The position numbers were made by a program, and so were the translations under genes. DNA of 27,715 nucleotides from a virus. The stretch spans positions 1 to 27,715 of IMG/VR virus record IMGVR_UViG_3300033146_001719; one strand, 5' to 3'. Under the pieces are notes generated by a model. It made no database searches. It worked only from the letters and a program-made list of their open reading frames with translations, and was not told the DNA's origin. Positions 4,840-27,205 of the stretch are shown here, piece after piece (the stretch's first letter is position 1; every line of letters begins with the position of its first letter).

Positions 4840-6231
4840 TTATCTAATTATTTTTGAATATTCTACCTTAAATTTATACATTATAAAGCCAGGTTTTTCT
4901 TTTAATGCTACTTTCTGTTTATTACTTATTCTATTTATAACATATCTTTCTCCATCTATCCACATTGTTTGTTTAGCAGAAGAAAATAAACCTTTTAATA
5001 AATCAATCTCGTGTTTCTTTAAGAAATCAGTTTTAACTTCTATAATATAAGCATTATCATTTGAATAAGAACTTATATTAGTTTCATTTAATTCATTATG
5101 TACTCTATTAGAACTAATCTTTAAAGAATTATGTTTGTACGATTTTTGTTTACCAATCATTTCATCTTCTCTTATTTTATTAAAAGAGAAATAATCAATA
5201 CCACCATAACTATTTTGCCAGTTAATATCTATTTCTTTTGTATCACAAGGATTAAAATCCCATGAATATATATTTGATACAACATCTGATTCATCTATCC
5301 AAGTAGTACCATCTTGTAATCTAATATCTAATCCTACAATCTCCACATCACCTGAATCTATTCCTGATTGTAAATTATGTAAGATTCCTGTTTGTGTTAT
5401 TGAAGTACTTACCCATACTCCAGTTTCAGGATTTATATAGCCTTCTCTATGAATAGATGTTACATCAAGATTCTTAATTCCTACTGGAACTTTTAAAGCA
5501 CCTCTTATATAATCTGAAGTAACTGTTAAATCAGTAGGATCAAAAGAATATTGTGCAAGTGGCATTAATGTATAAAACCACTTAGTAACTAAACCATACC
5601 AAGGATGAGCAGGATTTATTGTTTTAGAATGTAAAATATAAACTATTTTACTGTATTCAACACCAGGAAAATAAGTTGGATCAGTATCTCCAGCTATATA
5701 CATTGAAGCTGTTGCTTGCCATCCAGTTTTATATCTTAATCTTGGTTGCATATTAGTAAAAATATTACCCCAATTTACATTATCAATTTTAAATGGAATT
5801 ATAGAATCATTTTCATTATATCTATAATTAGCTGCTAAAGATTTAGTTGCAAATGTTTCTGTTCCATGATCAGCTGGTGCTTCAATATTTGTTGTACTTA
5901 TAACATTACTGTAAAATTCTTGAACACTTATTTTGTATTCTTTTAAAAATTCTGTAGATGTTACTTGTTCAACTGAATCTAAATTCATAGTTGTAAAAGA
6001 TTCTATCACATTTTTAATATTTAATATTCCTAAACCATTATGTGTTGGTGTTTGTAGTGTATCAAAAATTAATCCACTATCATCATATATTCTAAAATGA
6101 TATTGAAAATCAAAATAGTTAGAATATATAGTTGAAATAGCAGTTATATATGAACCTACATTACTTGAATGTGGATATATTAAACTTGCATCTTCAATAT
6201 TATTCGGTACTTGATGTATTGTTATTGCCAT
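4840..6231 (-). CDS. Probable minor tail / distal-tail (Dit-like) protein
   Basis: A 463-residue protein, MAITIHQVPNNIEDASLIY at the N-terminus, starting at ATG 6229-6231 behind an AAATAAAATA leader. It looks all-beta. The last 150 residues carry IDINWQNSYGGIDYFSF, a charged RxHNELNETNIS stretch, SSAKQTMWIDGERYVINRIS and a final FKVEYSKIIR. I associate this pattern with a minor tail protein encoded next to the hub in Bacteroidetes phages. It sits between the gp10-like completion protein and the 1315-aa tail-tip protein, the position expected for a Dit-like adaptor. Seen: fold character and context. Inferred: the Dit-like role. It could equally be a second baseplate or tip component. Confidence 0.5.
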   Translation of the reverse strand: MAITIHQVPNNIEDASLIYPHSSNVGSYITAISTIYSNYFDFQYHFRIYDDSGLIFDTLQTPTHNGLGILNIKNVIESFTTMNLDSVEQVTSTEFLKEYKISVQEFYSNVISTTNIEAPADHGTETFATKSLAANYRYNENDSIIPFKIDNVNWGNIFTNMQPRLRYKTGWQATASMYIAGDTDPTYFPGVEYSKIVYILHSKTINPAHPWYGLVTKWFYTLMPLAQYSFDPTDLTVTSDYIRGALKVPVGIKNLDVTSIHREGYINPETGVWVSTSITQTGILHNLQSGIDSGDVEIVGLDIRLQDGTTWIDESDVVSNIYSWDFNPCDTKEIDINWQNSYGGIDYFSFNKIREDEMIGKQKSYKHNSLKISSNRVHNELNETNISSYSNDNAYIIEVKTDFLKKHEIDLLKGLFSSAKQTMWIDGERYVINRISNKQKVALKEKPGFIMYKFKVEYSKIIR

Positions 6232-6235
6232 TATT

Positions 6236-6652
6236 TTATTTTATATTTTCTCCTTGTTTTAAATATTCATATAAAGAATCTCCAATGCTTATTCCTATTG
6301 CATGTTCTATTTCATCTTTATATTTATCAATTGTTTCTGTAAACTTATACACAAATGGATGTGCTTTAGTTCCATATTTACTAATGTTAATTGCTACTGC
6401 CCATGCATTCAATCCTTTAGCCTCTGCCCACTTTTCAATAGAGCTTACTGGAGGCATATGGGGCTTAGTTCCCTCATCTACAAATTTACCATATAACGGC
6501 ATTACCACTTGCACACTGTATGCATCAGGGAGGTTATAAGTAATATTATTTTTTAAATTACCTGAACCAACAGAACCATTTGATTCCAATTCCTCTTGCA
6601 TTGCTTTTACAATTGCACTACCAACTTTATTTAATATCTCTGATGCTTCCAT
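6236..6652 (-). CDS. HK97-gp10-like head-tail / tail completion protein
   Basis: A 138-residue protein with an N-terminal amphipathic helix (ASEILNKVGSAIVKAMQEEL), then GSGNLKNNITYNL and the signature PLYGKFVDEGTKPHMPP followed by a Trp-containing helix. The YxxFVDxGTxPHxPP pattern is typical of the HK97 gp10 / Bacillus YqbI group of small head-tail joining proteins. Length (130-150 aa) fits the family. Its ATG (6650-6652) overlaps the TAA of the upstream tail-completion gene as TAATG, implying translational coupling. It probably acts at the head-tail junction during virion assembly. The family call is fairly secure; the exact position in the neck is inferred. Confidence 0.7.
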   Translation of the reverse strand: MEASEILNKVGSAIVKAMQEELESNGSVGSGNLKNNITYNLPDAYSVQVVMPLYGKFVDEGTKPHMPPVSSIEKWAEAKGLNAWAVAINISKYGTKAHPFVYKFTETIDKYKDEIEHAIGISIGDSLYEYLKQGENIK

Positions 6653-7092
6653 TAGCTTTTAGGTGTTATACAACTATTTTTTGCTGGCAGTATTGTTACT
6701 AATTCAACTTTAAATATCCATCCACCTAATAAATCATCAAACTTACCCTCAAATGGAATTATACCTATGTTAGATTCATCTAATTCAAATTCAATACCAT
6801 CATTATCTTCAAAATATTCACTTATAACATCTCTACCTATTAATAAAGTTGAATTCATTATATCAATTAAGTTAGAATTATCTTGTTCTTGTAAATCCAT
6901 GATATAAAGTTCCATCTTTAATGTAAGTTTTGATCCTGAAATTGTAGAATCTATAGGCTGAACCCACATCATAGGATATAAACTATCTTTTGTTGTAATA
7001 TTAGCTATATTACCCCATCCAAACTCATTTAATTGATAATGATTATCACTAAATTCCTTTAAATCTTGTATAATTGCTTTAAATGTTTTCAT
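6652..7092 (-). CDS. Tail-completion / tail-terminator-like protein, short paralogue
   Basis: A 146-residue protein starting MKTFKAIIQDLKEFSDNHYQ. It contains TTKDSLYPMMWVQP, IMDLQEQDNSNLIDIMNSTL, FDDLLGGW and a C-terminal CITPK. The protein encoded at 8543-9208 repeats this pattern over its first 145 residues (TTKDNLFPMLYIEP, ILDLLEHDDSNNLDISNETL, YDDLLAGW, CITPN), so the two are paralogues, about 40-50% identical by eye. The size, one-domain layout and location beside a gp10-like gene match tail-terminator or tail-completion proteins, which cap the tail tube. This short form is the better candidate for the conventional role. Function is inferred from context and general pattern. Confidence 0.6.
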   Translation of the reverse strand: MKTFKAIIQDLKEFSDNHYQLNEFGWGNIANITTKDSLYPMMWVQPIDSTISGSKLTLKMELYIMDLQEQDNSNLIDIMNSTLLIGRDVISEYFEDNDGIEFELDESNIGIIPFEGKFDDLLGGWIFKVELVTILPAKNSCITPKS

Positions 7093-7301: not shown

Positions 7302-8501
7302 TTAATTATGTGATACTGTGTATCCATCAGCAATAAGATTTGCTTTTGCTGCTAAGAATTCAGTATGTAGTGGTTCATCTGCATCATTTGGTGATGCATT
7401 ATTTGTAAAGTTCAAAGGAACTGGAGCTACTGCTCTTGAAAGCCAAGTATCTAAATCTACTATCAATTGTGCAGTTTCATTTGGTGTTGATAGTGCCCAA
7501 TAAGATATGGTATTTTGATAACCTCTTAGATACATATATGTTGATAAATATAATGGTTTATCTATTCTATCAGTATATGTTACATTAGCACCATATATAT
7601 AAATTTGGTTCTTTCTATAACCTTCATTTGTTTCACCTGGATAAATTATATTTCCTTTTAGAAAAGTTCCTACATCTCCATACACACCTTTATTATAATT
7701 TGATGTTCCATATTTAAAAGTGAAATATAATAAATTATAGTATATGTAACTATCTTTCATTTTACCTATATCACCACTACTTTCAATATTATAAAAGAAA
7801 TAAAATCTTGATGGTGAATTATTAAATTCATTGAAAGAACCAACAAAACCTCCACGATAAATATAGATACCTGGTGTATGTTCTGTTGTAGAAAAATTAG
7901 TATATGGAAATTTATTATGCCATTGTGGTGCAACCCACACTCTTGAACCTTGGTATAAATAAAGATATCTTAAACCATCACCATAAATATCGATGTTCTT
8001 TGTTGTGTTCATAAACTCAGGTGCATAATTATGATTGAGATAGATATAACCATTAGGATTATCATACACTTCTATTTCACCATCTCCCCAGTTTACATAA
8101 ATATTGCCATCTCCCCAACTTGATTGCTGATAAACTCTTGTTGATGTGTTAAATCCAGTTGTTAATTCCCTATCATCAACACTAATTTTTAATGATGCAT
8201 CTGGAGTTGGAACCTTTATCTGTAAATTATGTGTACAAGTTTCACCAATACTATCTTGAACTGTAAAAGAATAATCACCAAAGGTTCTTTTTGTTTGTGA
8301 GAAAAATAGTTGTTCTGAAACTATTCTATCCGGAAAGAAGATTTGAAAATTAGATATATTCAACTCAGATGTATCTGAAGTTCTACCTGATATATAAATA
8401 TTTTGTGTATTATCATGGCCTGGTATAAACTCCCATACATAGTGCCCTTGCCCTTCAAATTTAAAATAGTTATAAGTTCCAGCATACATCTTATATCTCA
8501 C
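7302..8501 (-). CDS. WGDG / BspA-like tail surface protein (5' end uncertain; possible frameshifted continuation)
   Basis: The 399-residue ORF has a GTG at 8499-8501 and its first ATG at 8487-8489, but the open frame extends upstream without a stop to 8585. There it overlaps the previous gene in the -1 frame and still reads like protein (GERVRIEFDYDTDVFDALV). The body contains an Ig-like stretch, then NIYVNWGDGEIEVYDN followed by an HNYAP turn and a DIYGDG strand. This WGDG...HxY pattern is typical of PKD/BspA-like surface repeats in Bacteroidetes. Next come Tyr-rich irregular repeats (about residues 190-330) and a C-terminal domain (VDLDTWLSRA...LAAKANLIADGYTVSHN). A role in adhesion or decoration on the tail is inferred. 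The true N-terminus is either an alternative start, or this ORF is the second half of a longer protein begun at 9208. Confidence 0.6.
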   Translation of the reverse strand: MRYKMYAGTYNYFKFEGQGHYVWEFIPGHDNTQNIYISGRTSDTSELNISNFQIFFPDRIVSEQLFFSQTKRTFGDYSFTVQDSIGETCTHNLQIKVPTPDASLKISVDDRELTTGFNTSTRVYQQSSWGDGNIYVNWGDGEIEVYDNPNGYIYLNHNYAPEFMNTTKNIDIYGDGLRYLYLYQGSRVWVAPQWHNKFPYTNFSTTEHTPGIYIYRGGFVGSFNEFNNSPSRFYFFYNIESSGDIGKMKDSYIYYNLLYFTFKYGTSNYNKGVYGDVGTFLKGNIIYPGETNEGYRKNQIYIYGANVTYTDRIDKPLYLSTYMYLRGYQNTISYWALSTPNETAQLIVDLDTWLSRAVAPVPLNFTNNASPNDADEPLHTEFLAAKANLIADGYTVSHN

Positions 8502-8542
8502 TAATGCATCAAATACATCAGTATCATAATCAAATTCAATTC

Positions 8543-9208
8543 TTACCCTTTCTCCAATTTCATACTGAATACCATCGAATAATCAGCAGATGAACCAAGA
8601 GCATTAACTACACCTAATATTGTATTATCTTCATTACAAGATTTCTGTAATTCAGTATCTAAAATAGTATAAGGAGGAACTCCACCTTCTGCAGATATCG
8701 TAACAGGAAACAAAAATGGTTCTTCTGGCCTGCTTGGTACAACTACTGAGCTTGAACATCTTAAAGGTTCAGGTTGATTAGGAGTTATACATTTATTTAA
8801 AGGTAATTTAGTTTGAATAGTTATAGTATATCTCCATCCTGCTAATAGATCATCATAAATGCCATGTTCATAGTTACCATTAATGTTATCAGTTAGTAAT
8901 TCAAAATCTATTCCTGTATTATCTTCAAAGAATTCAGCTATTAAATCTCTTGCTATTAAAAGAGTTTCATTTGATATATCTAAATTATTTGAATCATCAT
9001 GTTCTAAAAGATCTAATATTCTTAAATTAAAAGTATATTCACCAACCATATTCTTTATTGATGAATTAGTTGGTTCAATATATAGCATTGGAAATAAATT
9101 ATCTTTAGTTGTTATAACTTCATCTTTACCGAAAAGGAATGAGTTAATTTGATAATGATTATTTGCAAATGTTTCTAAATCATTTATAATAGCTTTAAAT
9201 GTTTTCAT
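8543..9208 (-). CDS. Tail-completion-like protein, long paralogue with C-terminal extension (possibly frame-broken)
   Basis: A 221-residue ORF starting MKTFKAIINDLETFANNHYQ. Residues 1-145 duplicate the 146-aa protein encoded at 6652-7092. Beyond CITPN it carries a Pro-rich linker and an Ig-like piece (SAEGGVPPYTILD...) that stops abruptly after SMKLEKG. At the same place the next ORF is already open in the -1 frame, and rereading one base at AAA GGG TAA would give ...KLEKG-VRIEFDYD... and run on through the 399-aa ORF. The isolated extension looks incomplete for a domain, so this may be the front part of a protein of about 630 residues. Alternatives are a real stop here with the next ORF starting separately, or a programmed frameshift. 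Confidence 0.6.
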   Translation of the reverse strand: MKTFKAIINDLETFANNHYQINSFLFGKDEVITTKDNLFPMLYIEPTNSSIKNMVGEYTFNLRILDLLEHDDSNNLDISNETLLIARDLIAEFFEDNTGIDFELLTDNINGNYEHGIYDDLLAGWRYTITIQTKLPLNKCITPNQPEPLRCSSSVVVPSRPEEPFLFPVTISAEGGVPPYTILDTELQKSCNEDNTILGVVNALGSSADYSMVFSMKLEKG

Positions 9209-9212
9209 TAGT

Positions 9213-10028
9213 TTATTTTTTGTTTATTTGTTTTATTTGTTCATCAGATTGGAATTTTCTATATGATAAGAACTCTAAAACTTCAATTAATTTTTTATTT
9301 GTTATTTCATCTACTTTAGTTATATCATCATTAGTTAAAGAGTAAATGATTCCTTGCCAACCCCATCCATTTATATTATCTTCTTCATCTGTATCTTCTT
9401 CATCTTCTGAAGGTTCATTAAGAGGATTATCATTGTTTGATTTATCATATAGTGATACAGCATCTTCATCTTCTTCAGGTTCTCCTATAAATAAGTTAGG
9501 GTATGATTTTATAATACCTATTCTGTATTCTGAAAAATGATTAAATATAGATAGAAGAGTTTCAACTTTAAATTTAGATAACTTATTTGATAAATCATTT
9601 ACATCTTCTATATTATAATTATCTGGTAATAGTAAGCATGCTACTACATTTTGTATTTTAGTTTTAGAGTTATCTTTAGATGTTAAAAAGAAATCAGCAT
9701 CTACATATCTACCAAATTTAATTTTATTTAAGTTTTGTGTTATATATTCTGTTCCTTTAATCTTATAACTCTTTTGAATAGGTTTACTTTTAATTTCTTG
9801 ATTAAGGATTGATTTGAAATCTATTTGTGTAAATGAGATAACATCTATATTATCTAAAGTATCAATTGGAATATCAGCTAAGATATTTAGTATCTTTTTA
9901 ATTTGATTAATTTCATCATTTTGTTCGCTAAGGATTCCAAATAAAAGGTTATACTTATCAAGAGTTAGTTCTGATATGTTCTTACATTTATAAGTTGTAT
10001 CTAATATTTTAAATTGTATTCTATTCAT
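9213..10028 (-). CDS. Tail assembly chaperone-like protein
   Basis: A 271-residue protein with three parts. Residues 1-170 are helical and polar. An acidic linker (EPEEDEDA ... EPSEDEEDTDEEDN, about 178-215) follows. The C-terminal domain carries NGWGWQGIIYSLTNDDITKVDEI and ends in a Lys-rich helix. An acidic hinge followed by a short domain with a Trp-containing helix resembles the tail assembly chaperones that bind tape-measure and tail-tube proteins (lambda G/GT type). Here both parts are in one frame, with no frameshift needed. The gene directly follows three tRNA genes and lies 4 bp before the long tail-completion paralogue. The tape-measure gene is about 14 kb away, unlike the usual adjacent arrangement. 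The role is inferred from domain layout. Confidence 0.5.
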   Translation of the reverse strand: MNRIQFKILDTTYKCKNISELTLDKYNLLFGILSEQNDEINQIKKILNILADIPIDTLDNIDVISFTQIDFKSILNQEIKSKPIQKSYKIKGTEYITQNLNKIKFGRYVDADFFLTSKDNSKTKIQNVVACLLLPDNYNIEDVNDLSNKLSKFKVETLLSIFNHFSEYRIGIIKSYPNLFIGEPEEDEDAVSLYDKSNNDNPLNEPSEDEEDTDEEDNINGWGWQGIIYSLTNDDITKVDEITNKKLIEVLEFLSYRKFQSDEQIKQINKK

Positions 10029-10040
10029 ATTTAATTTTTG

Positions 10041-10114
10041 CAGGAGTGGTAGGATTTGAACCCACGATCTTCGGGTTTGGAATCCGATATTCTAACCAAC
10101 TGAACTACACTCCT
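10041..10114 (-). tRNA. tRNA-Trp (CCA)
   Basis: On the minus strand a 74-nt cloverleaf: acceptor AGGAGTG (10108-10114) pairs perfectly with CACTCCT (10042-10048), the D-arm is GTTC/GAAT, the anticodon loop is TTCCAAA and the T-arm GTGGGTTCAAATCCTAC. The anticodon CCA reads UGG. The discriminator base G73 (10041) is the usual Trp identity base. The 31-39 pair is an A-C mismatch. The terminal CCA is not encoded (GCA follows the acceptor). Confidence 0.93.
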
Positions 10115-10126
10115 GTTTTATTTTAG

Positions 10127-10200
10127 TAGGAATAGTAAGATTCGAACTTACGGCCACTTCCGTATCAGAGAAGTGCTCTAACCAACTGAGCTATATTCCT
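10127..10200 (-). tRNA. tRNA-Ile (GAT)
   Basis: A minus-strand cloverleaf: acceptor AGGAATA/TATTCCT has 7 pairs, D-stem GCTC/GAGC, anticodon stem CTTCT/GGAAG around loop CTGATAC, T-arm GTAAG-TTCGAAT-CTTAC, discriminator A. The anticodon GAT reads AUC and AUU, the latter very common in this A+T-rich genome. CCA is not encoded. It lies 12 bp from tRNA-Trp and 5 bp from tRNA-Ser, probably on one precursor. Confidence 0.95.
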
Positions 10201-10205
10201 AAGTG

Positions 10206-10290
10206 CGGAGATGATAGGATTCGAACCTATGCAACCACTACAGTTGTACAGTTTAGCAAACTGCTGCGTTAACCACTCTGCCACATCTCC
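10206..10290 (-). tRNA. tRNA-Ser (GCT)
   Basis: An 85-nt minus-strand cloverleaf with acceptor GGAGATG/CATCTCC, anticodon loop TTGCTAA (anticodon GCT, reads AGC/AGU), a T-arm ATAGG-TTCGAAT-CCTAT, and a long variable arm between anticodon and T-arms as expected for a class II tRNA. The discriminator is G73, as in tRNA-Ser. CCA is not encoded. It is the first of three clustered tRNAs after the terminase gene. Confidence 0.95.
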
Positions 10291-17937: not shown

Positions 17938-17943
17938 AGGGAG

Positions 17944-18015
17944 AGCACCTAGTTGGAATCGAACCAACATATAACAGGATTGCAAACTGTTCCCTAACCA
18001 ATCGAGCATAGGTGC
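17944..18015 (-). tRNA. tRNA-Cys (GCA)
   Basis: A 72-nt minus-strand cloverleaf: acceptor GCACCTA/TAGGTGC fully paired, D-stem CTC/GGG, anticodon loop TTGCAAT, T-arm GTTGG-TTCGATT-CCAAC, discriminator T (17944). The anticodon GCA reads UGC/UGU, and U73 is the bacterial tRNA-Cys identity base. The 31-39 pair is a T-C mismatch. CCA is not encoded. It ends a minus-strand transcript and is separate from the other three tRNAs. Confidence 0.9.
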
Positions 18016-23714: not shown

Positions 23715-26705
23715 TTAAAAACTAACTCTATCTTGAACTTCTACATCAGTATCTTGTTGATCTGTTATTTCATGTGATACTACATAAATCTTTTTACTTT
23801 GTAATGTTGCTGCTAATAAATTATAATCAATTAAAGGTGAAACTTCATTAACATCTCCAGAACTATTACCAGCATCATTAATACTATTTAATAATGGAGC
23901 AAATTCTTGAGTGCTTGCTCTATTTATAATAAATTCACCACCTTCTGCTTCAACTGCACCCATATTAACACCACCTGCTGCATGTAAAGAACCATTAAGA
24001 ATTCCACCACCTGCTGCAATTAAAGGTTTAGGAGTAAACTTCTCTTTATTAACATCTGATATTTGTTTAATAGCAACCCCTGCTATTATAGCTGATTCTA
24101 TTCCTGCTAGTATTTGCCCAGCTGGAGCAGGAATAGTAGTATTCCATGCAGCCATGATACCTGATGCTGCATTAATAGCAATACCAGCTTTTTGAGAATT
24201 TTTAGATGAATTAAAAGCTTGTTGGCCTGCTGCATTTTCAGTTTTAATTCTTTTATTCTTGATTTCTTTCTCTTTTTCTTCTTTCTTTAATTGTAATGTT
24301 ATAACTTTTTTATCAAATTGTTCTTGTGATATTAAACCTGAATCTAATTGGGCTTGTAATAAAGCTTGTTCTTGTTTAAACTTTGCTTCTAAAATATTAG
24401 TTTCTTTATTTGCAGTTTCTGTAGCAGCTGCAATTCTAGCATCTTTTAATTTATTTGCATTATCAATAGAAATTTGATTAATTTGCGATAATATACTTAA
24501 TCCTTTTTGTGCTACTGCTTTAACAGTAGCTAATTCTTCATCTAAAGCTGCAGCTTTTGCAGCTTTCTTTTCTTCATTTCTTACTACTTCAGCTTCATCT
24601 TTAGCTATTTGGATTTCAGCATCTCTTTCATCTCTAATTGTTTGATATTCTTCTTCAGTTATCAATTGTTGATCAAGCTTCATTCTTAATTGTTCATCTT
24701 CAAGAACTGCTTGTTCATCTAATTTAATTAAAATATTATTATGTTTTTCATCAATTAATGTTAATTCTCTATTAAGTTGTTCTTGATTACTTAAATCTTG
24801 ATTATCTAAAAATGCTTTATGAATACTTAATATTAAATCATCTGTAGCTTTCTTTTGATCAATTAATTGTTTATCACTTTTCTTTTGATTATCAATTAAA
24901 GATTGATTTAAACCATCTACTTTATTAATATAATCTTGATCAATTTTTAATAACTCTAATGAAGTTTTTTCTTTACTCCATTCTTCTTGTTCAGCAGTAG
25001 CTCTTACAATTTCTAATTGTTTATCTTTATTAATTTTATGTAATTCAATTCTAGCATCTAATTCTGTTTGTGTTGCTACACTATTATCTTTTAATGCTTC
25101 TACATTCTGTTGTTTCCATAAATCAATAACTTCTTGATTAGCAGCTATTAATTGTGAATTATGTTCATCTTGATTTTCAGCTATTTTTTCATTAGTTTCT
25201 CTTGTTATTTTTTTCTTTTCAGTTAAATATTTTAATTCTGCTTCTTTTAACTTTAAATTATTAGTACCATATTCGGCTTTTATAATTTCAAATTCTTTTC
25301 TCGCCGCTTCTATTTTTTTATTTTGTATTTTAATCAATCTATCTTCCTCATCTTTTAACATTTCTTCTGTAAATGTTTTTTGATTCTCTAAAATAGATTG
25401 ATTAGTTTCTTCATAATATTTTAATCTAGCTTTAATTAAATTAACATTTTCTCTTAATGATTGAGATCTTAATCTATTACCTTCTTGAGCCTTTTTAGCT
25501 CCTTCTTCAGCTACTTTACCTTCTAATTCTGTTTGTTTTATAATAACATCCATTAAATGTAAACCTTCTTCTCTTAAAATAGTACCTTCATCCATTAATT
25601 TCTTAACTTGAGTAGCATTTTTAACTTCTACTCCATATTTAGCATTAATTAAACCTATTTCAGCATTAGTAACTGCTTCTTGAGCACTTAAATCATCTTC
25701 AGCTTGGCCTTTTCTCATTGCATAATAATCTTCAAAGGCTTTCTTTCTTTCATCTATTGATTTACTTTGATCTTTATAAACACCTTCAAGTTTTTTCATT
25801 GATGCTGTAACTTCTGCAGTAGTAGCATCATTTAACTTTTGTTGCGCATCATATTCTCTTAATGCTTGTGTTAATTTTTCATTAGCTTCAGCAACAGCAA
25901 TCATTTTATCACCCATATCACCAATAAGTTCACTAGCTTTTGCAAAATCACCACTAAAAACTGCAGCGATTACATCGCCAACTCCTTTCATTGATTCTAC
26001 AAAACCATCTACTAAACCACTAACATATGCAATTTTATCTTCAATAAAATCTAATAAAGGCTGAAATTTACTTAATACTGCAACGGCTACTCCGATTAAG
26101 GCAGCAATTAATGTTAAAATTAAACCAATAGGATTACTAAGCAACATAGTAAAAAAAACTTTAGTTGCTTTAGCGGCATTCATTACTAATCCAGGTAATT
26201 TACCCATAGAACCACCAAATGAACTCATCATACCTCCAGCTTGTTCAGCTCCTTCTCCCATTTTAGCCATACCTTCAGAATACTTACCAGTTTGCCTGTG
26301 GAAATTACCTCCAGCTTGTTCAGTTTTATTTAATTCATCAGTTAAAGCTTTTTGTTTAGCAACCATCTTTTTACCAACATTAACATCATTTAATTCTGCT
26401 TTTGATAATTTATTAATATTATTAGTAACTACTGATAATTCAGCTTTTAATTTTTCTAAGTGCCCACTCTCTTCTTTCTTTAACTTATTAGTATTTTGTA
26501 TAGCTTTACTATTTTCATTATAACTCTTCTTTAAAACTTTTAATTTTTCAGCGTTATCAACGAATTCTTTAGTACCTTTTTGATTATTTTTACTTAATTC
26601 TCTTTGAGATGCATTTAATTCTTGAATTTCTTTATTTGTATCAACTAAAGATTTTTCCATTTTAGTTGTATCAAGATTTAATGTATATGTAATAACTTCA
26701 GCCAT
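23715..26705 (-). CDS. Tail tape-measure protein
   Basis: I place the start at ATG 26703-26705 (MAEVITYTLNLDTTKMEKSL, 996 aa). The frame is open to 26738, but the preceding gene overlaps that stretch and an A-rich leader precedes 26705. Residues 15-110 are coiled coil (LKKSYNENSKAIQNTNKLKKE), followed by a Gly/Met-rich part. About 190-240 is hydrophobic (LLSNPIGLILTLIAALIGVAV), as in most tape measures. Some 500 further residues are long Glu/Lys/Gln coiled coil. The C-terminus (AIIAGVAIKQISDVNKEK, GGGILNGSLHAAGGVNMGAV, EGGEFIINRAST) is typical of the family. At about 0.15 nm per residue a tail of about 150 nm is expected. The stop-start overlap with the endonuclease gene (TAATG) couples the two. 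Confidence 0.9.
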   Translation of the reverse strand: MAEVITYTLNLDTTKMEKSLVDTNKEIQELNASQRELSKNNQKGTKEFVDNAEKLKVLKKSYNENSKAIQNTNKLKKEESGHLEKLKAELSVVTNNINKLSKAELNDVNVGKKMVAKQKALTDELNKTEQAGGNFHRQTGKYSEGMAKMGEGAEQAGGMMSSFGGSMGKLPGLVMNAAKATKVFFTMLLSNPIGLILTLIAALIGVAVAVLSKFQPLLDFIEDKIAYVSGLVDGFVESMKGVGDVIAAVFSGDFAKASELIGDMGDKMIAVAEANEKLTQALREYDAQQKLNDATTAEVTASMKKLEGVYKDQSKSIDERKKAFEDYYAMRKGQAEDDLSAQEAVTNAEIGLINAKYGVEVKNATQVKKLMDEGTILREEGLHLMDVIIKQTELEGKVAEEGAKKAQEGNRLRSQSLRENVNLIKARLKYYEETNQSILENQKTFTEEMLKDEEDRLIKIQNKKIEAARKEFEIIKAEYGTNNLKLKEAELKYLTEKKKITRETNEKIAENQDEHNSQLIAANQEVIDLWKQQNVEALKDNSVATQTELDARIELHKINKDKQLEIVRATAEQEEWSKEKTSLELLKIDQDYINKVDGLNQSLIDNQKKSDKQLIDQKKATDDLILSIHKAFLDNQDLSNQEQLNRELTLIDEKHNNILIKLDEQAVLEDEQLRMKLDQQLITEEEYQTIRDERDAEIQIAKDEAEVVRNEEKKAAKAAALDEELATVKAVAQKGLSILSQINQISIDNANKLKDARIAAATETANKETNILEAKFKQEQALLQAQLDSGLISQEQFDKKVITLQLKKEEKEKEIKNKRIKTENAAGQQAFNSSKNSQKAGIAINAASGIMAAWNTTIPAPAGQILAGIESAIIAGVAIKQISDVNKEKFTPKPLIAAGGGILNGSLHAAGGVNMGAVEAEGGEFIINRASTQEFAPLLNSINDAGNSSGDVNEVSPLIDYNLLAATLQSKKIYVVSHEITDQQDTDVEVQDRVSF

Positions 26706-27205
26706 TATGTTATATTTATTTTTATATTTTTGAAACACTCTTGCATACCACTAAATTTAATTATAGGTATATATTTAAATTCTTTATTTTCTTTTTGTAT
26801 TGTATTTTCTAATTCACTAATTATTCTCGAAGAGCCTTTGAATATTTTAATTATTTTATAATTATAAGGTAATCTAATAAATCTTCTTTTTATTGTTAAA
26901 AAAGTTTTCCCTATTTTATAAAATTCTTCTTTATCATTATAACACTTAATTATATAAACTTTAAATGAATCAAATTCTTTACTTTTATTACCAGCTTCTT
27001 CCCATCCAGTATAACTCCACCATCCAGTAGTTCTTCCTTTAGAGGCTTTACTTAATTTATCTCTAGTTTCTTTAGTAACTGGAGTTAATCTACGTTTTTT
27101 CCAAGCTTCTTTTAATTTTTCTTTATGTTCTTCTGATAATTTTTTGCCTTTTTGAGATTCACTCATTTTCTTTAATGTTTCTTTAGAATGTTTCCTAGTT
27201 GCCAT
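26705..27205 (-). CDS. Homing endonuclease, NUMOD3 plus GIY-YIG (free-standing)
   Basis: A 166-residue protein with several NUMOD3-like DNA-binding repeats at the N-terminus (HSKETLKKMSESQKGKKLSE, SEEHKEKLKEAWKKRR, TKETRDKLSKASKG), then a GIY-YIG nuclease module: FKVYIIK at 81-87, FYKIGKT at 95-101, R107/R108, and acidic residues E131/E133. The module ends IPIIKFSGMQECFK. Such enzymes cut a target allele and spread by repair. Order of domains (DNA-binding first) is inverted relative to typical I-TevI-type enzymes. The gene sits directly before the tape-measure gene and after a hairpin-rich spacer; no intron is evident. Base composition resembles its neighbours. Confidence 0.8.
   Translation of the reverse strand: MATRKHSKETLKKMSESQKGKKLSEEHKEKLKEAWKKRRLTPVTKETRDKLSKASKGRTTGWWSYTGWEEAGNKSKEFDSFKVYIIKCYNDKEEFYKIGKTFLTIKRRFIRLPYNYKIIKIFKGSSRIISELENTIQKENKEFKYIPIIKFSGMQECFKNIKINIT

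Follow-up and report, generated by a model that had tools for sequence, protein, structure and literature searches.

Tail terminators are normally small, conserved ring proteins, and those of the gpU type (lambda gpU, T5 p142, pyocin R2 collar) resemble most closely the protein considered here. Known larger terminators have extra domains, for example those that contact the sheath (PMC11784142). Carbohydrate-binding modules are found at the neck or collar of the lactococcal 936 phages and TP901-1, in the neck passage structure (NPS; PMC6669499), while ribosomal frameshifting makes Ig-like C-terminal extensions in phages, as in the T3 coat protein, A2 and PSA (PMC5009743).

The locus lies in a virus record of 27.7 kb (the window), and has traits of each of these systems. 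Two open reading frames, ORF A and ORF B, lie on the minus strand, the frame of B being -1 relative to that of A. The N-terminal 145 residues of ORF A share the predicted fold of gpU-type terminators, and the gene position beside Neck1 is alike; the locus differs from them in that fused relatives (and, in broken form, the window) add a C-terminal surface module, and in that the window genome has two terminator paralogues. As with the NPS, a module would be displayed at the neck or collar, but there it belongs to a separate BppU-like collar protein, whereas in the family of the window it is joined directly to the terminator. The arrangement of two ORFs in different frames, of which the second encodes an extra domain for a structural protein, also recalls T3, A2 and PSA; unlike these, the window has no slippery site, and none of its relatives has a frame offset at the joint. 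The features discussed below are the following.

8543..9208, minus strand: ORF A, 221 aa, terminator domain (residues 1-145) and linker, the last ~11 codons outside the coding frame
8774..9208, minus strand: tail terminator (gpU-like) domain, copy 1, from an AF2 model and Foldseek matches in the PDB
7302..8582, minus strand: open frame of ORF B, the surface-type C-terminal part of the putative broken fusion
8543..8582, minus strand: stretch in which both frames are open, with codon-phase statistics preferring frame B from ~8577 on
8577..8584, minus strand: most probable frame-break site, from the switch posterior, its calibration by synthetic breaks, and a tandem repeat with its chance rate
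6652..7092, minus strand: second tail terminator, intact and stand-alone, 146 aa, sharing 51% identity with copy 1 and adjoining Neck1
6236..6652, minus strand: Neck1-type protein, 138 aa (PHROG 5, E 1.4e-6)
9213..10028, minus strand: tail assembly chaperone-like protein, 271 aa in a single frame, matching both overlapping ORFs of relatives

Layout and identity of the two reading frames

ORF A ends in SMKLEKG followed by TAA at 8545-8543, and ORF B, of 399 aa when counted from a GTG at 8501 to its stop at 7302, follows in the -1 frame, in substance as the first-pass annotation had described. The B frame is uninterrupted for 425 codons. It had been taken to be open back to 8585 and to lack an ATG before 8487; the first in-frame ATG is indeed the one at 8489-8487, but an in-frame TGA at 8585-8583 bounds the frame upstream, so that the first sense codon is at 8582, and the GTG at 8501 is an earlier candidate start, which no ATG, GTG or TTG precedes. 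Upstream of this GTG the B frame translates as LFDGIQYEIGERVRIEFDYDTDVF.

Sequence searches of A and B against Pfam, PHROG and the PDB gave no significant match, and the identity of the N-terminal domain is drawn from its predicted fold. AF2 modelled the N-terminal 145 residues from an alignment of 34 sequences with a pLDDT of 85.2 and a pTM of 0.79, and the best Foldseek matches of the model in the PDB were lambda gpU (3fzb), the pyocin R2 collar (6u5f), T5 p142 (8bcp) and the P74-26 neck, with E-values of 1e-4 to 1e-3, a probability of 1.00 and TM-scores of up to 0.60-0.64. By this predicted fold the domain is a tail terminator, which narrows the earlier label of a tail-completion domain. 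Genes in the window and in relatives follow the same order: chaperone – terminator – (module) – Neck1 – tail.

For ORF B no homologue was found in any collection searched. The labels Ig-like and WGDG/BspA, previously attached to the joined protein, find no statistical support, the best Pfam match being SprB with an E-value of 0.26-0.31 over 14 residues. An AF2 model of ORF B alone was discarded (pLDDT 36), a resemblance of its C-terminus to P12024L_10 was not significant (E 0.18), and a CBM_4_9-like jelly roll spanning the A-B joint, suggested by reading the joined protein by eye, was supported by no tool and was dropped.

Position of the frame break

Phase-specific Markov models of order 1-4, trained on 21 other genes of the window, place the best switch position at 8577-8584 at every order: frame A is preferred down to ~8577 and frame B after it. 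Between 8577 and 8543 frame B is ahead of A by 6-11 nats; for genuine frame-A coding the expected difference is -17 +/- 6.6, and of 441 control stretches not one attained +3 nats in this test. By score, the final 11 codons of ORF A belong to frame B rather than A. The preference persists from 8542 to 8502, upstream of all B starts, where frame B leads by 12-19 nats, in line with the mean of 16 for true-frame stretches of equal length. The coding signal of frame B can be followed back from GTG 8501 for ~75 bases, which takes it into the final codons of ORF A (the same 11), and because it reaches upstream of every possible start, B must at one time have been translated as a continuation of A. 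The proposal that A and B make up one protein of ~630 residues is borne out by the same signal.

The precision of this placement was calibrated with 238 synthetic breaks introduced elsewhere among the window's genes, which were located with a median error of 3 nt and a 95th percentile of 19 nt, errors of 30 nt or more occurring in 0.4%. The switch posterior, P = 0.96-0.995 at or upstream of 8570 and ~0.001-0.002 at or downstream of 8555, is somewhat overconfident, as nominal 95% sets contained the true synthetic break in 84%. With the switch so mapped, a joint at AAA GGG TAA (8551-8543), put forward in the first-pass annotation and lying about 35-40 bases downstream of the mapped site, is very unlikely, and a missing G in the GGG run, to which the break had been attributed, falls with it. 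A and B were probably once a single reading frame, which was lost at 8577-8584.

The break site itself carries an 8-base imperfect tandem repeat, its first unit at 8584-8577 and its second, with a gap of 2 bases, at 8576-8567; on balance this repeat produces the frame offset seen between A and B. Such repeats occur by chance in other genes at ~0.01 per 12-base interval, a rate that is optimistic for the present case, since the repeat was spotted only once the break had been mapped.

Fused and separate forms in the terminator family

Starting from the paralogue pair of the window, members of the terminator family were found in contigs of IMG/VR and in a small number from Bacteroidota genomes; a scan of 395 Bacteroidota genomes matched only the centre genome itself. 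Forty-four of 55 distinct terminators are stand-alone, and 11 of 55, a share biased upward by one scan that was built on two fused members, run on in the same frame for 66-693 residues. A fusion of terminator and surface module, which had been thought unusual, is therefore ordinary here. Seven of the 11 fused ORFs are complete in their contig (L136, L190, L191, L194, L198, L205 and L206; 124-693 aa beyond the terminator domain), and the other four leave the contig end.

In L006-L014 (except L009) a separate, ATG-started ORF follows the terminator within a few bases, and in L006, L008, L011 and L012 this separate module is homologous to the fused part of L188 and L190 (30-40% identity, E to 3e-17). 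The terminators of L204 and L206 are 86% identical, with unrelated neighbours: in L204 (2548-4087) a separate ORF of 344 aa follows, and L206 (2114-4132) encodes a 672-aa fusion. Two separately started proteins, regarded beforehand as an argument against a joined one, thus do exist among the homologues (L006-L014, L204), but fused ones stand beside them and the fusion is not refuted. A common linker is shared by L136, L191, L194, L198, L199 and L205, which mostly diverge beyond it. The 842-aa ORF of L190 (1572-4097) combines the terminator domain with a stretch matching the alpha-L-arabinofuranosidase B catalytic family PF09206 at 38.9 bits (cut-off 25), and has a PHROG virion structural match and a weak match to phage cement proteins.

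In the tree, the window, fused and separate sequences fall in one clade (support 1.0), in which fused and separate forms neighbour each other at two points and the window's own pair group as sisters (0.94). Judged from these sequences, the family has repeatedly, and in modular fashion, joined surface modules to its terminators. In the window, where the frame is broken, no single open frame spans terminator and module, and searches for an intact homologue of the A-B fusion itself, for a relative of ORF B and for a close phage relative gave none among records from which near-identical ones may have been withheld; neither did viral_contigs contain close relatives of A, B, the 1315-aa tail protein or the MCP, nor did searches of phage records with A, B, the 463-aa protein or the L009 or L007 terminators return any.

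While the break itself is ordinary, the terminator family around it is of interest to specialists: in these phages terminators serve as an anchor for exchangeable surface modules, as seen in the L204/L206 pair, the shared linker and the arabinofuranosidase match of L190. This suggests adhesive or glycan-binding parts at the neck that are fused directly to the terminator. From the predicted fold and the fused relatives, the N-terminal domain of an intact form would be part of the terminator ring, where the tail meets the head, and the module would be displayed at the neck.

Other genes of the neighbourhood are worth recording. No other locus was seen with two terminator paralogues in one genome. 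The chaperone halves, encoded in one frame in the window, are overlapping ORFs in relatives (for example, L003, L033, L118 and L159), those of L003 being offset by -1, like lambda G/GT.

Origin of the break

The intact ancestor would have been one gene for a tail terminator with a C-terminal surface module, ~630 residues in all, which a small indel at 8577-8584 would have split into A and B; that such a fusion gene existed and was broken there, through mutation or through an error in the record, has good odds. As written, the product would be 221 aa, made up of the whole terminator domain, part of the linker and ~11 out-of-frame residues, and the surface module would be lost unless the ribosome slips or reinitiates. 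The break is probably tolerable, as a second, intact terminator adjoins Neck1. A real and recent mutation, for which the offset and the imperfect tandem repeat would fit a short slipped duplication, is our tentative first choice, although its chance taken singly falls a little short of even. An error of sequencing or assembly, with the fused gene intact in the true genome, comes second and is rather unlikely. In its favour, the break is the single one within ~27 kb of otherwise intact ORFs, similar records of the same collection carry frame breaks (the terminator of L141, 5501-5928, is split over two frames at ~5660-5740), B is open over its whole length as would be expected were nothing truly broken, and a one-base error at 8577-8584 would look identical; against it, an 8-base imperfect repeat is atypical of read errors, and 8577-8584 lacks a long homopolymer.

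Whichever of the two it was, the window copy is most likely an ordinary broken member of its family rather than a case of programmed recoding. Independent translation of B, by ribosomes that terminate on A and reinitiate at GTG 8501 or ATG 8489, has its model in those relatives whose surface-type ORF starts from its own ATG a few bases past the terminator (L006-L014, L204), but is improbable, as the frame-B signal begins well before either start and both lack the A-rich leader typical of other genes of the window (A fraction 0.25 for GTG 8501 and 0.40 for ATG 8489; the median over 21 other genes is 0.65, and ORF A has 0.75). Slightly more doubtful still is programmed recoding, by -1 slippage or a short bypass, which would supply, next to the 221-aa terminator, a small share of fused protein in the manner of the phage Ig-like extensions. 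Recoding does add C-terminal domains to head and tail proteins of other phages (PMC5009743), B is still open, and matching GAT codons lie 8 bases apart at 8584-8582 (frame A) and 8576-8574 (frame B). But on inspection of the sequence, frame A contains no X XXY YYZ slippery heptamer from 8584 to 8543, the downstream RNA has no significant stimulatory structure (fold z -0.72), the stop that follows the take-off codon in a bypass of the T4 gene 60 type is absent (the first GAT is followed by TAT), and the relatives, fused in frame or separate with their own ATG, have no frame offset at the terminator/module joint. The first-pass annotation had likewise seen no canonical heptamer and had judged error or recent mutation as likely as recoding; we concur in both respects, error or mutation being at least as likely. 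It is very doubtful that the break is functional, with a bypass or unconventional slip at 8577-8584 giving a minority of terminators a surface module; if it were, the ring would mix bare and decorated subunits, and the paralogue at 7092..6652 would add further bare ones.

The host of the phage is probably a member of the Bacteroidota, judging by the company of its TerL and its A-rich leaders. The window also encodes four tRNAs on the minus strand, with genes for Trp, Ile and Ser clustered at 10040-10290 and one for Cys alone at 17943-18015. Adjoining a tape measure-like gene, a 166-aa ORF (26705-27205, minus strand) has repeated SEEHKEKLKEAWKKRR-like motifs, which we take to be reminiscent of homing endonucleases.
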